DNA of 12,285 bases from an uncultured Alphaproteobacteria bacterium. Its GTDB lineage: Bacteria > Pseudomonadota > Alphaproteobacteria > Micavibrionales > Micavibrionaceae. How positions within the stretch are numbered: the stretch's first letter is position 1; each line of letters begins with the position of its first letter. The translations under genes and the position numbers were made by a program. Location of the stretch: positions 1 to 12,285 of the forward strand of contig CAKZKV010000136.1 of the NCBI GenBank assembly GCA_937124505.1, written 5' to 3'. The notes under the pieces are model-generated. The model worked only from the letters and a program-made list of their open reading frames with translations. It had not been told where the DNA came from and made no database searches. This document shows positions 3,105 to 12,285 of the stretch, in pieces.

Positions 3105-3518
3105 ATGATGAATGAAGCCTTTGCAGCCTGCCTGTTGCTCGCGGCGCAAAATTATGCGGTGCCTCCTGCGGCCCTTGTTGGTATTTATCACGTTGAAGGC
3201 GGAAAAGTTGGGCAGCAGGTGCGGAATAAAAACGGCAGTTATGATCTGGGGCCTATGCAAATTAATACAATCTGGATTCCTGAATTGGCTAAAAAATGGG
3301 GAGTGTCAGAGGCGCATGCTAAAAAATGGGTGCGGGATGATGCGTGTACAAATGTGGGGGTCTCTGCCTGGATCCTTCGTGGACATTTGAATGAGACGCA
3401 TAATCTTAAGGAAGCGATTGCCCACTATCATTCCAGAACGCCTAAATACGGAAATACTTACAAGAAAAAAGTGATAAATGTTATGTACAAAAACAGCCTT
3501 GTAAAAAATAAACGATAA
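3105..3518 (+). CDS. Lytic transglycosylase (SLT-like, VirB1/TrbN-type)
   Basis: This 137-residue protein is essentially one lysozyme-like transglycosylase domain. The catalytic glutamate is Glu31 in GIYHVEGG, the conserved GLMQIN-type motif appears as DLGPMQIN (47-54), and the C-terminal AIAHYHS...YKKKV block is typical. Cys9 and Cys81 sit where related secretion-associated transglycosylases carry a structural disulfide. Such enzymes cleave the peptidoglycan MurNAc-GlcNAc bond to make room for an envelope-spanning secretion machine. The start has a good GGGAGGG-type ribosome-binding site, and an in-frame TAA at 3099-3101 rules out an upstream extension. The protein therefore has no conventional cleavable signal peptide, because the hydrophobic N-terminus is already the first domain helix. 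The domain call is firm; the export route is unclear. Confidence 0.85.
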   Translation: MMNEAFAACLLLAAQNYAVPPAALVGIYHVEGGKVGQQVRNKNGSYDLGPMQINTIWIPELAKKWGVSEAHAKKWVRDDACTNVGVSAWILRGHLNETHNLKEAIAHYHSRTPKYGNTYKKKVINVMYKNSLVKNKR

Positions 3519-3616
3519 TAAAGGCTTGCTGCAATAATTTGGACAAGCTATCCTTTTATTTGATAAAACGCTGTTGTAAAAATTTATTTAAATAAAAATT
3601 ACGGACTGTAAAAAAT
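3519..3616 (+). promoter_or_regulatory. AT-rich spacer, possible promoter before dotDCB
   Basis: This 98-base gap separates the transglycosylase from dotD. TTGGAC (3539-3544), a 17-base spacer and GATAAA (3562-3567) make a weak sigma-70-like promoter. An imperfect inverted repeat (AAAGGCTTG at 3520-3528 against CAAG and CCTTT at 3544-3556) followed by T-rich sequence could be a weak terminator for the preceding genes. A 14-base A/T palindrome lies at 3583-3596. These are low-confidence by-eye signals that would mark dotD as the start of its own transcript. Confidence 0.3.
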
Positions 3617-4120
3617 ATGAATACAAAACAAATTATAGCCTTAGGACTTCTTTTGCCTCTGCTGACCGGATGTGGTGGAACCTACATGAAGGGAAACCCG
3701 CAAATTGTCGCAGAGCCGGACAAGATTTCAGCATTATTAGCAGATGCGGCTGATCGTGCGAGTTCTTCTCTGGAGACTCTTGCCGCTATTGAAGCGCAAA
3801 AACGTCAGGTTCCTGCAACGGCGAATCTGGACAATGCGCCGAAAGAATTGAAAAGAGGAATTACCATTAACTGGATTGGTCCTGTTGAAGATATTACAGA
3901 GAAGCTTGCAAACCGCGCGGGGTATTCGTTCCATGTCTATGGGGCTGCTCCTGCCACGCCGATTATTGTTTCTGTCGATGCGGAAAGCAGGCCGATTGTT
4001 GAAGTTCTAAGAAGTGTGGGTGTTCAATTAGGTAGTGAAGCAGCTATCCATGTGAATGCTCAAGACAGAGTAATTGAAATCAGATACGCAACAAAATTCC
4101 AGGACATCGATGATCTCTAA
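3617..4120 (+). CDS. dotD: DotD/TraH-family outer-membrane lipoprotein of type IVB secretion
   Basis: This 167-residue lipoprotein has a signal peptide ending in the lipobox LLTGC; lipidation would be at Cys19. The next residue is glycine, so there is no inner-membrane retention signal and outer-membrane sorting is expected. A helical linker (about 35-80) leads to a compact domain at about 82-158 with the beta-alpha-beta-beta-alpha-beta pattern of DotD (GITINWIGPVEDI, then IIVSVDAESRPIVEVLRSVG, then RVIEIRYA), resembling secretin N-domains. In Legionella, DotD with DotC targets DotH to the outer membrane and forms part of the outer-membrane core. The C-terminal 11 bases overlap the preferred dotC start, indicating translational coupling. 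The call rests on the fold pattern, lipobox, size and the adjacent unmistakable DotC and DotB. Confidence 0.88.
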   Translation: MNTKQIIALGLLLPLLTGCGGTYMKGNPQIVAEPDKISALLADAADRASSSLETLAAIEAQKRQVPATANLDNAPKELKRGITINWIGPVEDITEKLANRAGYSFHVYGAAPATPIIVSVDAESRPIVEVLRSVGVQLGSEAAIHVNAQDRVIEIRYATKFQDIDDL

Positions 4121-5003
4121 AATGACCTTCCCATTAAAAACATTCACCAGAGGCGCTCTGATGGCCTCCCTTTTGCTCTCTGCTCCTTTAAGCAACCAGG
4201 CTTTTGCGCAATTTTTTGCGAGTGCGAAAGTGGAAATCGAGCGTGGTGATTCCACGCATATGCCTCCTCCAACCATTCATACTCTATTCGAATTGGAAGT
4301 TGATGAAGATGGAGGGCCGATCAAGGAAGGCGAGGGGATAGGGCTTGATATTCGTATGGATGCCCTGAAAGAGGCTGCTCTTTCCTATGGTGCACGTGGT
4401 GGCTTGGCTTTTCGTACATATGAAATCCGGAAAGAACTGGATGACAAGGCCCGCTATCTGGATAAAGTATTTAATTTCAGACGCTTACTTATTCGCGCCC
4501 CATCTGGTTTCTTTATTGAACCTCCCGTTGTAACCGAAGCGGACAATAATACATTAATCAATGGCTTGGAAGCTGCTGTTACGGATCGTATGTATAATAT
4601 CAATTCAAATGCCAAATTTGTGAGTGCGCCCAAAACATGGAATCAATATCTTGAACGTGAATGGGGCGAAGTTGAGCCGCCGCCGAATATCTTGAGACCG
4701 GTTAACGATGAAGAACGTCGGATTTGGAAACAAAAAGTAGAAGAAGGCTGGGTCGAAGGGTATGATCAGGCTGACGAAATATTTGAGAGCGATCTGGCTC
4801 TTCTCCTGGCGCATTTCAGAGGGATGGTGCGGTATCGGATTTTGCTGGCACAAGGCATGATTACAGAGCCTTTTACAGCTCTTAAAGATCGTGGTATTAC
4901 CGGAGGTGGTACGAATATGCGTATAGGTGATCGTGCTGTACAGATTATTGATGTTCCACAGCTAATTCCAGAGTCTGCTGAATGGTCACCAGAAAACCGG
5001 TAA
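4110..5003 (+). CDS. dotC: DotC/TraI-family type IVB secretion core protein, without lipobox
   Basis: The chosen ATG gives 297 residues. It has AGGA 5 bases upstream, overlaps the dotD stop and places a normal signal peptide at the N-terminus (basic n-region, LMASLLLSA core, likely cleavage AFA-QF near residue 33). An ATG at 4122 is a possible alternative; a TTG at 4074 would push the signal peptide inward and is unlikely. The mature part follows DotC closely: MPPPTIHTLFEL, a stretch around LKEAALSYGARGGLAFR, KVFNFRRLL, APKTWNQYLEREW (175-187), EEGWVEGYDQADEIF, FRGMVRYRILLAQGM and GITGGGTNMRIGDR. In Legionella, DotC is a lipoprotein that works with DotD to localise DotH. Here there is no cysteine anywhere, so lipidation is impossible and the protein should be soluble in the periplasm or held by partners. 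It overlaps dotB by 22 bases. Confidence 0.93.
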   Translation: MISKMTFPLKTFTRGALMASLLLSAPLSNQAFAQFFASAKVEIERGDSTHMPPPTIHTLFELEVDEDGGPIKEGEGIGLDIRMDALKEAALSYGARGGLAFRTYEIRKELDDKARYLDKVFNFRRLLIRAPSGFFIEPPVVTEADNNTLINGLEAAVTDRMYNINSNAKFVSAPKTWNQYLEREWGEVEPPPNILRPVNDEERRIWKQKVEEGWVEGYDQADEIFESDLALLLAHFRGMVRYRILLAQGMITEPFTALKDRGITGGGTNMRIGDRAVQIIDVPQLIPESAEWSPENR

Positions 5004-6133
5004 GTCTTGCAAAGGCTGAGAATGCGGCTGAAGAAACTTGGCCTGATGAGCCCATGCGTTTCACGGAAGATCATGTCGATCCTTTCCTGTTATGGGCGAT
5101 CAAGAAAAATTCATCTGATATTACCTTTCAATCAGATAAATCAATTTATGGTGATATTCACGGTACAATTTATCCTCTGACTTTTCGTCCCTTGGATGCT
5201 GCCGATATCGCTGCGGTTCTGAATAAAATATATGGCCCGGATGCGCTTGCTCGCCTAGCGAGTGGACGTGATCTGGACGTTTCCTATGAGGTCAAGCCTG
5301 ACCGTTATACGCGGTTTCGGTTCAGAACAAATATTACAGCTATTTTGTCAAAAGGGCGCGATGCTGTGCAGGTTACGATGCGCGTTCTGCCTAATCAGCC
5401 GCCGACAATGGAAGATTTGAATACAGAGCCGGAAATTATCAAATCCTGGGCTCCGAGGCAGGGAATCGCGGTTATAACAGGGCCAACAGGTTCTGGCAAA
5501 ACGACATTGTTGGCCGCCGGCATGCGTATGTTGCTGGAAAGTGTTCGTGGTGTCGGCAAAGTTTTGACTTATGAAGCACCAATTGAATATGTTTACGATA
5601 CCATCGAACAGAGACGGTCTTTGGTGGCGCAGACTGAAATTCCCAGGCACCTTCATGATTTTGCCCACGGAGTTAGAAATGCCTTGCGTCGTAAGCCAAA
5701 TATTATTCTTGTGGGTGAGTCACGGGACCGAGAGACAATTTCTGCTTCTATTGAGGCCGCTCAGACGGGACACCTTGTTTATACCACGACTCACACAATG
5801 GGAGTCGCAAACACTATTTCCCGTATGATTTCAACGTTTGAGATCAATGAACGCCAGGAACGGGCTTTGGCCTTAATGGAATCCATGCGTCTGGTTGTAA
5901 CGCAGGCACTGGTGCAGAAAGTTGGTGGGGGGCGTATTGGTGTGCGGGAATGGATGATTTTTCCAGATGAAGTGCGGGAAAAACTCATGTCTATTGAATT
6001 TACAGAGTGGTCAGCCGAAATACAGAGAATGGTTCCTCTATATGGGCGCACAATGGGGCGTTCGGCAGAGATTATCTTTGAAGAAGGAAAGATTGATAGA
6101 CGGACATATATTATGTTATCATCATCTACTTAA
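4982..6133 (+). CDS. dotB: DotB/TraJ-family secretion ATPase
   Basis: This 383-residue cytoplasmic AAA+ ATPase belongs to the PilT/VirB11 superfamily. The N-terminal domain (about 20-140) carries DEPMRFTEDHVDPFL and the SSDITFQ motif. The catalytic core shows Walker A GPTGSGKT (167-174), the Asp-box region TYEAPIEYVYD with conserved acidic residues, EIPRHLHDFAHGVRNALRRKP as in Legionella DotB, Walker B IILVGESRD (241-249), and the His box with TGHLVYTTTHT (262-272). All expected catalytic residues are present and the length is close to Legionella DotB. DotB forms a hexamer that docks on DotO to energise substrate transfer. The ATG at 4982 lies inside the end of dotC, implying coupled translation; a later ATG at 5054 is possible but would remove a family-like N-terminal extension. 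This is the most secure identification in the secretion cluster. Confidence 0.96.
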   Translation: MVTRKPVSLAKAENAAEETWPDEPMRFTEDHVDPFLLWAIKKNSSDITFQSDKSIYGDIHGTIYPLTFRPLDAADIAAVLNKIYGPDALARLASGRDLDVSYEVKPDRYTRFRFRTNITAILSKGRDAVQVTMRVLPNQPPTMEDLNTEPEIIKSWAPRQGIAVITGPTGSGKTTLLAAGMRMLLESVRGVGKVLTYEAPIEYVYDTIEQRRSLVAQTEIPRHLHDFAHGVRNALRRKPNIILVGESRDRETISASIEAAQTGHLVYTTTHTMGVANTISRMISTFEINERQERALALMESMRLVVTQALVQKVGGGRIGVREWMIFPDEVREKLMSIEFTEWSAEIQRMVPLYGRTMGRSAEIIFEEGKIDRRTYIMLSSST

Positions 6134-6157
6134 GGCATGTAAATAAAGGGGTTTTAT

Positions 6158-6463
6158 ATGGTCTCAAGAGAAGAGTTTGAAAATATTCAGGAGATGCAGA
6201 ATTGGCACTGGAGAAATTCCATGCGTCCAATTCGATTCTTTGCTTTTGATGCCCGTGCGGCCGTTCCTTATATCTTTCTGTTATTATATGCCCGTCTTGT
6301 GACGCTCACTCTATGTATTATTGTGACCACAGTATTTTATATTCTTGAGAGAATGGGTTTGACGGTTCCTTCTGCTTTGCGTAAATTAAGATCATGGCTT
6401 GTTGGACCTAGGCGTCCAGGTTGGATTACCTTGCGTCAGAGACGCATGATTGACTACAAATAG
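6158..6463 (+). CDS. icmT: IcmT/TraK-family inner-membrane protein
   Basis: This is a short membrane protein of 101 residues. The family signature WHWRNSMRPIRFFAFDARAA (16-35) is followed by a hydrophobic region (about 36-62), LERMGLTVPSALRKLRSWLVGPRRP, and a basic C-terminal tail. This is the layout of Legionella IcmT, which is a little shorter, and of IncI TraK. IcmT is required for type IVB function, and Legionella icmT mutants are defective in phagosome escape/egress; its exact place in the machine is not well defined. An AAAGGGG ribosome-binding site precedes the ATG, and the gap from dotB is only 24 bases, so it belongs to the dotD-dotC-dotB transcript. In Legionella icmT lies apart from dotDCB; here it follows dotB directly, as traK follows traJ in IncI plasmids. 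Confidence 0.9.
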   Translation: MVSREEFENIQEMQNWHWRNSMRPIRFFAFDARAAVPYIFLLLYARLVTLTLCIIVTTVFYILERMGLTVPSALRKLRSWLVGPRRPGWITLRQRRMIDYK

Positions 6464-6501: not shown

Positions 6502-8109
6502 ATGAAAACGAGACGTTATTTTAAGCAATTCCTGCTGGCATCTTCTGTTGTTGGTTTAAGTATTGCCGCGGCTTCCCATGCACGTGCTGCTTTTGAGTGG
6601 ACCCCACCGCAAGAAGTTGTTGCGGAAGAACCATCCTTATCAGAAGAAAACGCGGCTCCTGAAGATATGCTGCCCGTGGTTCCATCTGCGGAAGAAATTC
6701 AGACTGAAGAAATTCTTCCAGAAGTATCTGTTCAGGAAGAGATAATATTGGAAGATATCAATGAAAATGACATTGAGGAAGACCTCCGACAAATCATTGA
6801 AGAAGCAACAGAAAGCAATGTGATTACGCCTGTTGCAGATATTCCGGAGAGCGAGCAAATCGATGAGGTTCCACAAAATATTGTAGTGGAGCCTATCGCC
6901 GAGCAAGTATTGGAAGACGTGAAAAATGCTCCCAAACAAAGTATGCTGTTTGATTCTGTTCAGGACACACCGAAGCAGGATTCTAATTTTATACAGGGAT
7001 TCGGTCGTGATTTGCCGTTAATTACAGCCGTGCGCCAGATCGTTCCAACAGATGTTCCTTATGCTTTTGGGGAAAGCCTTGATTTAGCACAACTCGTGAG
7101 TTGGGAAGGGGGCGAAACATGGCAGGAAACTTTATTGAAGATTGCGAAAGACAATAATCTGAAAGTTGATTTTTCAAATCATATGGTTCGTATATCCAAC
7201 GCAGATACCACGATCTCGGAATCAGAGGCATCGCCGGAAATTGAAACAGTCCGTTTGGAAAGTATTCAGACAATGGAGGAACCCACCGAAAAAAAGTCTG
7301 AAGAGGGTGTGAAGGTTGTAATTGTAAAAGATGATGTATCTGTTTCTGCGGAAGGTGCGCTAAGAAAAACTCAAAAACCACTTAAGGTAGCGCAGCAAGC
7401 TGTAACCGAAAATGAAGTATTGGAAGCTACGATTTCAGATGCGATTGTCATTTCACCAATAGAGGATATGCAGACATCTGTTCCCCTTCCTGAAAAGGAA
7501 GGCACAGATGTGCTAAGCGAAGTAACGGAAGGCGCGGTGATTGAACCGATTGATCCACCATCTCAGGAAACGTTGCAACGTGCCAATAAGGAGGCAAAGA
7601 CATCCAGAATGACGGATGAGATGAAAATGGCAGAGCTTGAAGATCCTGCTATGTCTATGATTGATCAGGTGGTTGCTGATATGCAGGAAGACAGACCTGC
7701 TAAAGCCATCGTAGAGCCTGTTCCTCTCCAGATCACAGAACCTGCTCCGATAGAGGTATCTCAAGATGCCTCCGCGGCGGATCTAACGGAAGATGTAAAA
7801 ACCTCGATACCCGCTCAGAATCAGATGAAGGATACGTCCAGATTGTCTTTTGTAAAGACCTGGAAGGTCAAGAAAAATTCTGATCTGAAAACAACGTTAG
7901 AAGCCTGGTCTCAGGAGGTTGGCGTTAATTTACTTTGGAAAATGGACAAAGACTATGTTGTGAATTACATGGTCTGGGTCGATGGCAACTATGAAGAAGC
8001 AGTAGATGTCCTGATGCAAGGGTATGAAAACCAGAAAGGGCTTATTCCTGTTGCCACGCTGCAGATGGGGCCTTCCGGCCCAGTGCTGGTAATTGAGCCG
8101 GCTGCTTAA
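6502..8109 (+). CDS. Periplasmic TcpQ/secretin-N-like two-domain protein with acidic linkers
   Basis: This 535-residue exported protein has a Sec signal peptide (residues 1-30, SHARA-AF type cleavage) and no cysteine, so it is not a lipoprotein. Two short folded regions stand out. The first, about 163-233, reads GFGRDLPLITAVRQIVP, then VSWEGGETWQETLLKIA, then a strand ending MVRIS. The second, about 449-533, reads FVKTWKVKKNSDLKTTLEAW, then GVNLLWKMDKDYVVNY and the WVDGNYEEAVDVLMQGY block, and resembles the TcpQ C-terminal domain (PilL/secretin-accessory type). Between and before them are long Glu/Val/Pro-rich acidic linkers (33-160 and 235-445). Its good AGAGGAA ribosome-binding site and the 38-base gap after icmT place it in the same operon. 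I infer a periplasmic accessory that reaches toward the outer-membrane ring or peptidoglycan. No specific dot/icm gene name can be assigned. Confidence 0.75.
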   Translation: MKTRRYFKQFLLASSVVGLSIAAASHARAAFEWTPPQEVVAEEPSLSEENAAPEDMLPVVPSAEEIQTEEILPEVSVQEEIILEDINENDIEEDLRQIIEEATESNVITPVADIPESEQIDEVPQNIVVEPIAEQVLEDVKNAPKQSMLFDSVQDTPKQDSNFIQGFGRDLPLITAVRQIVPTDVPYAFGESLDLAQLVSWEGGETWQETLLKIAKDNNLKVDFSNHMVRISNADTTISESEASPEIETVRLESIQTMEEPTEKKSEEGVKVVIVKDDVSVSAEGALRKTQKPLKVAQQAVTENEVLEATISDAIVISPIEDMQTSVPLPEKEGTDVLSEVTEGAVIEPIDPPSQETLQRANKEAKTSRMTDEMKMAELEDPAMSMIDQVVADMQEDRPAKAIVEPVPLQITEPAPIEVSQDASAADLTEDVKTSIPAQNQMKDTSRLSFVKTWKVKKNSDLKTTLEAWSQEVGVNLLWKMDKDYVVNYMVWVDGNYEEAVDVLMQGYENQKGLIPVATLQMGPSGPVLVIEPAA

Positions 8110-8113
8110 TATT

Positions 8114-9286
8114 TTACAGGAAAGTTGCCAGTGTCAATCCGCTAACGGACGCTGTAACGCGGTAGGATGCTTCAAGCTGGATTTGTAAAGAATTCAGCTT
8201 AATGGCAACCTCATCAATATCGGCATTTTCCACATCACTGATCGTATTCAGAACCGTGGCCTTATCCAGTATATGCCGGTCTTTAATTTGTGAGAGTCGT
8301 GCGCGGTCACTTTCAAGGGCAAACCGTACCTCGTCCAGATCATCAATCGCCTGATTAATCATGCGGCCAAGGTCATTAATAATTTTGAAAAAGTTATCTG
8401 CTCTTTGATCGTTTTCCGCATTGAATTCATCCAGAACAACCGGGTCTGAAAAATCAGGAGGCAAAACCAGAGACGTTCCGGGCGGCGGTGTTTGAGGCAG
8501 GTCAGAAGGAAGTGTCGCCCCGTCAAAATCTGATCTTTCCAGCTTTATTTTTTCAATGTGATAAACCTCTGACGTATCTGTCACGGTGAGTTCATTTAAC
8601 ATCTGCGTTGCAATGATGATGTCCCGAAAGCCATCCGCATTTCCAAACGTTGTGTAATCGATTTCGGTTGTTTTATCGACCCGCACCGTGACTTTTCCGA
8701 CATCGCCATTTGTCAGAGGGGCGTTATATCCAATAACGGTGTCGGTTGTAGCGCGATAAGAAGCAATCAGATTATCCGTTGTTAATGTTTCCGCGCGCCA
8801 GTCAGTCAGCTCTCCTTTCAAAAAAGTGGAGAGTGTTCCGCTTGAAAGGGAGAGAGGTTTTGTCGTGGTATTGGCCCCGCCGAAGACATAGCGTTCATTA
8901 TCCTGTGCATTGATCAAATCTTCCATAAAATCAATAATGTTTTCTGTGATGTCATGGATACGATCAAGACTTATTTCCCCTTCCTGAATTTCATTGGCAA
9001 CAATATTTGCTACATTGCCGGCCTGATTTTGTAATTCTTCGATGACGGTTGACATCTGCTCCAGCCGACGATCCGCAATTGTAATGTTGTTGATGTATGT
9101 TTCAATCGAATTAAACTCAGCCCTTGAACGTTTGGAGATGATGGCATTAGTTTCCAGCCCGCTGAATTTCTGGGAAATTTTACCTGTACTTAGCTGCAGT
9201 TGCAGATCGCTCAGCGTAAACTGCTGCCGTTTGACATTTGATATTTGAGAGAGTGTTTGTCCTAAAGTGGAAATGCTGGTGACCAT
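8114..9286 (-). CDS. flgL: Flagellar hook-associated protein 3 (FlgL)
   Basis: This 390-residue protein has the flagellin-like N-terminal helical domain (ISTLGQTLSQISNVKRQQFTLSDLQLQLSTGK, then LETNAIISKRSRAEFNSIETYINNI) and the matching C-terminal helix, with DVENADIDEVAIKLNSLQIQLEASYRVTASVSGL at the end. Between them lies a variable middle region with a proline-rich loop. FlgL forms the second hook-filament junction ring, between FlgK and flagellin, and is exported by the flagellar type III apparatus without a cleaved signal. The gene follows flgK by 13 bases; its AAGGAG ribosome-binding site overlaps the flgK stop codon, so the two are translationally linked. The 3' end is only 4 bases from the convergent TcpQ-like gene, and I see no terminator in between. 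Confidence 0.92.
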   Translation of the reverse strand: MVTSISTLGQTLSQISNVKRQQFTLSDLQLQLSTGKISQKFSGLETNAIISKRSRAEFNSIETYINNITIADRRLEQMSTVIEELQNQAGNVANIVANEIQEGEISLDRIHDITENIIDFMEDLINAQDNERYVFGGANTTTKPLSLSSGTLSTFLKGELTDWRAETLTTDNLIASYRATTDTVIGYNAPLTNGDVGKVTVRVDKTTEIDYTTFGNADGFRDIIIATQMLNELTVTDTSEVYHIEKIKLERSDFDGATLPSDLPQTPPPGTSLVLPPDFSDPVVLDEFNAENDQRADNFFKIINDLGRMINQAIDDLDEVRFALESDRARLSQIKDRHILDKATVLNTISDVENADIDEVAIKLNSLQIQLEASYRVTASVSGLTLATFL

Positions 9287-11786: not shown

Positions 11787-11823
11787 AAAAAAGCTCCTGA
11801 AAAGTTATCTTATCAGGAGCTTT
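11787..11823 (-). terminator. Terminator-like hairpin that embeds the flgK ribosome-binding site
   Basis: Read on the minus strand, AAAGCTCCTGA (11823-11813) pairs perfectly with TCAGGAGCTTT (11800-11790) across a 12-base loop, giving an 11-bp stem. It is followed by a T-run (11792-11787) that abuts the flgK ATG directly. It has the form of an intrinsic terminator for the upstream gene, whose stop codon lies 27 bases before the hairpin. The 3' arm contains the only good flgK Shine-Dalgarno (AGGAG), so folding would also hide it. Folding energy was not computed. Confidence 0.7.
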
Positions 11824-11838
11824 GCAAAGAAAGTGCCA
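11823..11838 (-). promoter_or_regulatory. Sigma-54 (RpoN) promoter for flgK-flgL
   Basis: On the minus strand the sequence TGGCACTTTCTTTGCA matches the -24/-12 consensus: TGGCAC, five bases, TTGCA, with exactly ten bases between the GG and the GC. The match misses only the G usually found after TGGCAC. Counting from the -12 base at 11824 puts the transcription start near 11812-11809, about 25 bases before the flgK ATG. Sigma-54 control of flagellar hook and junction genes is well established in Caulobacter, Vibrio and Campylobacter. An enhancer site for the activator (such as FlbD) was not identified. Confidence 0.8.
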
Positions 11839-11850
11839 GTTTTTGTTATG

Positions 11851-12285
11851 TTACTCTCCCCAGAGATTTTGGGAACCCATATCTCTTAGGTCTACGTCTA
11901 CATTATATTCTTGCAGATCACGTAACTTCATTTCAACTAAAAGGGAAAGCAAAAGTTCTTTTCGAAGGGCCGCTTCATAACGATCACGCGTTTGCATCAG
12001 TTGCATGGCTTCCATCGTCACCTGAAAACGATCTATGTTGGCTTCTTTTGTGATGAGATTTGTGTAGAAGTTCGGGTGTTGGTATATCTGCTTTGTCAGC
12101 ATGTGCATCTGGGCAAAATAACTTGGATTTTCCCCGACAAAAAATTTGATATCATCAGGGGTCATACCAAATTCTTTTAACAAGCCATGAACCTCTGTTG
12201 TGACAAAGCCACTTCCTTCAGATTTCATTCCAACTAAATTGGCGTAACTGTTACGGGCAACATTACGGATCGCACTGATTGATCT
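11851..12285 (-). CDS. Unrecognised protein upstream of flgK (partial, 5' end beyond window)
   Basis: The frame is open to the last base of the window, so at least 144 residues are visible and the true start is probably outside; an internal ATG at 12228 has 19 open codons before it. I do not recognise a family. The visible part appears mostly helical and moderately charged: LLKEFGMTPDDIKFFVGENPSYF, then a helix-rich stretch with RFQVTMEAMQLMQTRDRYEAALRKELLLSLLVEMKLRDL, ending DMGSQNLWGE. No cysteine, signal peptide or membrane segment can be seen in this portion. Its position directly before flgK and on the same strand suggests a flagellar-cluster gene, as small uncharacterised genes often lie beside flgE and flgK. 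The hairpin 27 bases after its stop codon probably ends its transcript. Confidence 0.6.
   Translation of the reverse strand, partial: RSISAIRNVARNSYANLVGMKSEGSGFVTTEVHGLLKEFGMTPDDIKFFVGENPSYFAQMHMLTKQIYQHPNFYTNLITKEANIDRFQVTMEAMQLMQTRDRYEAALRKELLLSLLVEMKLRDLQEYNVDVDLRDMGSQNLWGE

Follow-up and report, generated by a model that had tools for sequence, protein, structure and literature searches.

The flagellar gene flgK, for hook-associated protein 1, lies on the minus strand of a 12,285-nucleotide (nt) stretch of DNA from an uncultured member of the Micavibrionaceae (contig CAKZKV010000136.1); this whole stretch is referred to here as the window. Between flgK and a co-oriented upstream gene we find a sigma-54 promoter packed together with a hairpin (Table 1). 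The promoter follows the consensus TGGCAY-N5-TTGC, with its GG and GC at the fixed distance (11838-11824), and its -24 element lies 12 nt past the stop codon of the upstream gene, with 27 nt between that stop codon and the 5′ arm of the hairpin. The two arms are perfectly complementary over 11 bp, 5 of them G-C, around a 12-nt loop. Three of the six T of the T-run are inside the stem and three more lie between the stem and the flgK ATG, so that a GC-containing stem is followed by a U-run as in an intrinsic terminator; a simple terminator scan, which accepts only loops of 3-8 nt, did not list this hairpin. Since the 5′ arm lies between the -12 element and the predicted +1, it is absent from the sigma-54 RNA. 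An earlier note on this DNA had described this arrangement of promoter, hairpin, Shine-Dalgarno sequence (SD), T-run and ATG, and we find it to be real and placed correctly to within one base.

Table 1. Features of the flgK promoter region and adjoining genes in the window (ORF, open reading frame; aa, amino acids).
Feature	Position	Strand	Basis
Co-oriented upstream gene, 3′ end	11851..12285	-	ORF list
Sigma-54 -24/-12 element TGGCACTTTCTTTGC, TGGCAC-N5-TTGC type	11824..11838	-	sequence
5′ hairpin arm AAAGCTCCTGA (anti-SD), between -12 and predicted +1	11813..11823	-	sequence, folding
Predicted +1 of the sigma-54 transcript	11812	-	position, 12 nt past the C of the -12 GC
3′ hairpin arm TCAGGAGCTTT, holding the flgK SD AGGAG	11790..11800	-	sequence, folding
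flgK SD AGGAG	11798-11794	-	sequence
T-run, six T, at the stem base and abutting the ATG (intrinsic-terminator tail)	11787..11792	-	sequence
flgK ATG	11786-11784	-	sequence
flgK (hook-associated protein 1), 828 aa	9300..11786	-	TIGR02492 241.3 bits, cut-off 170.75; PF22638
flgL-like gene, 390 aa, starting 13 nt past flgK	8114..9286	-	TIGR02550, flagellin domains, position

Folding throughout this work is thermodynamic only, and pairing, accessibility and the +1 are predictions. RNA covering 11860-11770 folds at -27.7 kcal/mol (z -3.68), and none of 200 shuffled sequences was equally stable. In its minimum-energy structure 10 of the 11 arm pairs are formed and part of the ATG is paired too, and RNA begun at 11811, from which the 5′ arm is gone, has no comparable structure. 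The unpaired probability of the flgK SD is 0.00 when the RNA is a read-through and 0.48 when it starts at the predicted +1 (11812). In a second leader of the same genus (L002, FlgK 73% identical) the promoter, both arms, the SD and the T-run are all kept; its hairpin has one C-G that is now U-G, three added inner pairs and a shorter loop, and SD accessibility in its sigma-54 RNA rises to 0.38.

The same region was surveyed in 89 loci drawn from two overlapping sets, 58 relatives and 104 genomes of the family. A -24/-12 match above a score cut-off of 14 precedes 87 of 88 flgK starts, with 35-125 nt (median 66) from the C of the -12 GC to the start codon. L105, where the flgK start was not found, and L094, with a best sigma-54 score of 11.7, were left out of the counts, and the remaining 87 leaders divide into 74 from the family of the window (32 genera) and 13 from other families of the order. 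The GG and GC of the sigma-54 element are present in all 74 family leaders. The family also holds a second, shorter type of flgK (L152-L171, 20 loci, matched at 23-30% identity), which was kept out of the leader statistics; 18 of the 20 have no upstream site reaching the sigma-54 cut-off of 14, the exceptions being L164 (site of 14.0, 166 nt upstream) and L156 (15.2, 193 nt upstream).

To measure pairing, we took the probability that the SD pairs with promoter letters -26..-1 in the folded read-through RNA. Across the 74 family leaders this averages 0.571, compared with 0.055 for pairing with -52..-27, 0.052 with -78..-53, 0.058 within the leader and 0.031 downstream. The probability is ≥0.6 in 48 and ≥0.35 in 56 of these leaders. 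Examples of the helices are promoter TCCTTGC with GCAAGGA, ACCTCTTTTGCAA with TTGTAAAAGAGGT, and TCCTTTCG (-7..+1) with CGAAAGGA. In the 13 leaders from other families, pairing with the promoter (0.206) is the same as with the preceding stretch (0.209). The family pattern suggests that the flgK promoter segment has two roles, that of a sigma-54 promoter as DNA and that of an anti-SD arm as RNA. When polymerase enters from the abutting co-oriented upstream gene, the arm would pair with the flgK ribosome-binding site (RBS) and block flgK translation; in the sigma-54-started RNA the RBS would be free because that RNA begins past the arm.

Pairing of this kind might arise by chance, as a pyrimidine-rich sigma-54 spacer and YTTGC naturally complement purine-rich SDs. 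Because any YTTGC pairs somewhat with AAGG, we exchanged promoters among leaders in all-against-all folds. With one leader for each of the 32 genera, native promoters pair at 0.589 and promoters swapped between genera at 0.364, and swapped values were as high in 0 of 2000 draws. Within genera (58 leaders, 16 genera) native pairing is 0.637 compared with 0.511 for swapped promoters (p=5e-5), and leaving out the genus of the window gives 0.624 and 0.493. Permuting the non-consensus promoter letters and the preceding 20 nt lowers pairing from 0.613 to 0.295, with the native value higher in 61 of 74 leaders (genus-level p=5e-6), and permuting the leader before the SD lowers it to 0.379. The swapped and shuffled controls still reach 0.30-0.36, which is a real baseline set by the consensus and may be the origin of the system; native pairing exceeds between-genus swaps, within-genus swaps and composition-preserving shuffles alike.

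The chance explanation also meets difficulty in the other sigma-54 promoters of the same genomes. In 28 such leaders, from the genome of the window and its relatives, pairing is 0.164 compared with 0.203 when shuffled, whereas 15 flgK leaders in the same comparison give 0.679 and 0.376. The genes of these controls were assigned by a heuristic, six further sites had no assignable gene, and the 23 controls with an ATG and a leader of up to 70 nt give 0.198 compared with 0.243 shuffled. The G content of the spacer is 0.34 in the other sigma-54 promoters and 0.09 in the pyrimidine-rich flgK spacers. Additionally, of the 51 arms that were classed, 23 are at -11..-1, where the consensus does not reach. 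We regard a by-product of promoter and SD composition as very unlikely; computationally, the pairing is family-wide and specific both for flgK and for the native promoter. Two leaders of other genes were also seen to pair their SD with the promoter, that of a flagellin-like gene (L116, 0.80; shuffled 0.56) and that of a gene of no known identity (L110, 0.66; shuffled 0.29).

Consensus folding of MAFFT multiple alignments was tried in five genera and helped little, since the position of the SD shifts and MAFFT loses the register of the arms; the swap tests took its place. In g10 it gave 26 pairs with 5 compensatory changes and 9 of 78 cells broken, in g11 11 pairs with one one-sided change and a break in 1 of 44 cells, and in g1 14 pairs with one one-sided change; in g28 and g35 the SD helix was not found (3 pairs each).

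The SD-pairing arm has two preferred places in the family, about -21..-14 and -8..-1. By class, the arm is in the -24/-12 core in 28 of the 74 leaders, between -12 and +1 in 23, among them the window, and in neither place in 23. Because genera differ in arm type and some hold both, arms seem to have been replaced across genera while pairing stayed. Selection probably maintains pairing in much of the family while both arm sequences change, with two placements of the arm, one in the -24/-12 spacer and -12 element and the other between -12 and +1. The earlier note had named as a refutation relatives in which the arms vary without compensating change, and this was not borne out: arms do vary, but native promoter-leader pairs still beat swapped ones. 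The escape of the sigma-54 RNA is predicted at the same scale. SD accessibility has a genus mean of 0.27 in read-through RNA and 0.49 in sigma-54 RNA; 62 of 74 leaders, and 25 genera out of 32, have the higher value in the sigma-54 RNA (p=2e-5). Moving the RNA start anywhere between -3 and +4 leaves mean accessibility almost the same (0.50-0.53, compared with 0.25 for read-through), so the exact start is on average not critical for escape. Occlusion of the RBS in read-through RNA and its release in sigma-54 RNA, as the earlier note had proposed, are well supported computationally in both the window and the family.

The variation among arms also bears on two other explanations. The pairing could time or couple translation, if the helix is opened or processed, whether by ribosomes arriving from upstream, by RNase III or by an RNA-binding protein, and flgK is made from both messages in some condition. 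A regulator that acts at the 5′ untranslated region of flagellin mRNA, FlbT, exists in Caulobacter, and 7 of 63 leaders have only 2-7 nt between the upstream stop codon and -26, so little that a ribosome ending translation there could disturb the base of the helix. The window, however, has 27 nt between stop codon and arm, and the positions and sequences of arms differ among genera, which leaves no common protein site; we consider coupling improbable. Alternatively the inverted repeat, a shape typical of operators, could act as DNA, either as a cruciform or as a site for a sigma-54 activator like FlbD. The ftr sites bound by FlbD lie in the promoter regions of flagellar genes (PMC3930126). An operator should be conserved in sequence, but the sequence, length, spacing and place of the arm vary by genus and follow the SD, and a function as a DNA site is highly improbable.

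If the arm acts on transcripts from upstream, the gene next to flgK is of interest. The same gene family lies upstream of flgK on the same strand in 63 of the 74 family leaders and in none of the 13 others (profile built from 12 loci), with a median of 26 nt from its stop codon to -26. A shorter gap goes with stronger pairing (rho -0.31, p=0.012, uncorrected for ancestry). Across all 87 leaders pairing is 0.61 with this gene upstream and 0.31 without it (p=0.0008), a difference that supports this gene as the cause of the pairing but is confounded with ancestry. Searches of Pfam and NCBIfam with the fragment in the window gave no match, and the gene family (11851-12285; L046:1107-2933) has no Pfam match and no PDB sequence match; its C-terminus carries a motif like RREMLxSLLxE. 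In a genome of the same genus the gene closes a co-oriented run of four, and at the thresholds used Pfam matched none of these genes.

This close spacing raises the question of whether the hairpin is no more than an intrinsic terminator belonging to the upstream gene, squeezed onto the flgK promoter and RBS, with SD pairing as a side effect. A promoter-borne 5′ arm, a stem and a T-run occur together in the window, L002, L028 and L022, which represent three genera; L028 builds the layout of the window from another sequence, and shuffled leaders in the same scan gave a mean of 0.2 of 87 and a maximum of 1 in 20 rounds. The 12-nt gap of the window leaves no other room for a terminator, and a scan for separate terminators between upstream stop and promoter gave 0 of 63 leaders when stems had to be perfect and 6 of 63 when one mismatch was tolerated. 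These four are nevertheless the only ones among 87 leaders with stem and T-run, while SD pairing is family-wide and specific to SD and promoter, which makes a plain terminator an unlikely explanation. Termination as a conserved function was ruled out on the same count. The earlier note had proposed termination and insulation of the upstream gene, which is plausible for the window and the three other leaders and does not extend to a common function. In the genus of the window and in two leaders of other genera the stem also ends in a T-run and is likely to stop a large part of the read-through RNA. In L022 (G035), TTACCCTTGC..GCAAGGGTAA followed by T forms a perfect terminator that is apart from the SD and whose 5′ arm runs into the -12 element.

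Several observations weigh against selected silencing of read-through RNA through the promoter arm. Pairing is below 0.35 in 18 of 74 family leaders, and the poorly paired ones include L065, L007 and L017, which have the upstream gene nearby. Values vary with the stretch that is folded (L029 gives 0.06 in one fold and 0.87 in another). In 12 of the 74 leaders, and in 7 genera out of 32, the SD gains no accessibility in the sigma-54 RNA, and in L028, with the layout of the window, another helix keeps the SD paired (0.00 to 0.07). Within-genus swaps are reversed in g6 (0.37 native, 0.42 swapped) and equal in g1 and g29, native pairs do not exceed swaps in the 13 leaders from other families (genus-level 0.219 and 0.230), and a value of 0.6 is also reached by 2 of the 28 leaders of other sigma-54 promoters. 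Having the upstream gene amounts to a trend only within the family, 0.61 with the gene and 0.42 without it (11 leaders, p=0.07; Fisher 0.12 and 0.50). Because leaders share ancestry, p-values in this work are too small; the genus-level and within-genus tests reduce this effect and do not remove it. Finally, searches for Sigma54_DBD and Sigma54_CBD did not find rpoN in the fragmented assembly of the window's own genome (357 contigs). Since G001, of the same genus, and 94 of the 103 genomes searched in the family have a Sigma54_DBD match, this is probably an assembly gap.

Further features of the genome and locus were recorded. The anti-SD end of 16S rRNA, GGATCACCTCCTTT, was seen in 4 of 7 genomes searched and not in the genome of the window. 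The flgL-like gene scores 54 bits with TIGR02550, below the cut-off of 127.2, and its flagellin domain matches are below cut-off as well. Genes of Dot/Icm-type secretion adjoin flgKL on the plus strand (3105-6463), with IcmT/TraK and T4SS_TraI above cut-offs and TrbN-, DotD- and DotB-like matches below them, and a TcpQ-domain protein (6502-8109) converges on flgL.

Altogether, comparative sequence and modelled structures make it quite likely that silencing of read-through flgK messages has been selected, with termination added in a few genera, where the T-run stem would also stop read-through RNA. We also lean, with more reserve, toward a family-wide translational insulator inside the promoter. 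Here the letters that the sigma-54 consensus leaves free in the flgK promoter would co-evolve with the SD, read-through messages would be untranslatable for flgK, and only promoter-born RNA would make the hook-filament junction protein, giving the promoter core a selected RNA function that is expressed when it is transcribed through and not when it is used. We infer that read-through occurs, that the RNA folds in this way in the cell and blocks translation, and that the stem terminates; the strict dependence of flgK on sigma-54 put forward in the earlier note is likewise an inference. If this is true, genes a few bases apart in small genomes could be kept independently controlled without a separate terminator, FlgK would strictly follow the sigma-54 checkpoint of flagella, and promoter spacers, usually called free, would be under a second layer of selection. 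Tight intergenic promoters elsewhere might also silence read-through RNA through SD pairing, and the swap test can be applied to any gene family in search of such promoters.

Parts of the proposed mechanism resemble known systems. An outside read-through RNA sequesters the RBS of the IS10/Tn10 transposase while RNA from its own promoter does not; that protection belongs to a mobile element and to another promoter class. Intrinsic (Rho-independent) intergenic terminators likewise have a GC-containing stem and a T-run, but here the stem is shared with promoter and RBS, and stem and T-run together were not found in 83 of 87 leaders. Flagellar genes that depend on RpoN occur in Caulobacter, Pseudomonas, Campylobacter and others. 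The RpoN-dependent middle genes of Pseudomonas include hook-filament junction proteins (PMC3930126), and the available part of this source does not describe silencing of read-through by promoter sequence. The earlier note knew of no description of the arrangement; our literature search found no account of it for sigma-54 or flagellar genes, nor of sigma-54 promoters acting as anti-SD, which does not prove that there is none, and the logic at the RBS is described for genes of phage T4. In T4 gene e and I-TevI (PMC3014915, PMC2988022), a longer RNA made earlier hides the RBS. The late promoter is so placed that its RNA is missing the 5′ strand, and this RNA forms no hairpin and is translated. 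Similar cases are I-TevII, I-TevIII, segB and Aeh1 mobE, and helices at the RBS occur also in soc and 49.

The likeness to T4 is that the RBS hairpin would form only in the longer read-through RNA. In predicted folds of the window the longer transcript has a stable helix whose 3′ arm contains the RBS, and the RNA of a downstream promoter lacks the 5′ arm, with the predicted +1 at 11812 and the end of the arm at 11813. Unlike the T4 genes, flgK is a chromosomal flagellar gene of bacteria with a sigma-54 promoter, and the arm is often the promoter core itself. The arms also turn over between genera with pairing kept, and leaders in three genera are terminator-shaped as well. We see the relation to the T4 elements as one of functional likeness, with no claim of descent; a device known from phage is predicted here for a flagellar gene of bacteria, in many genera.
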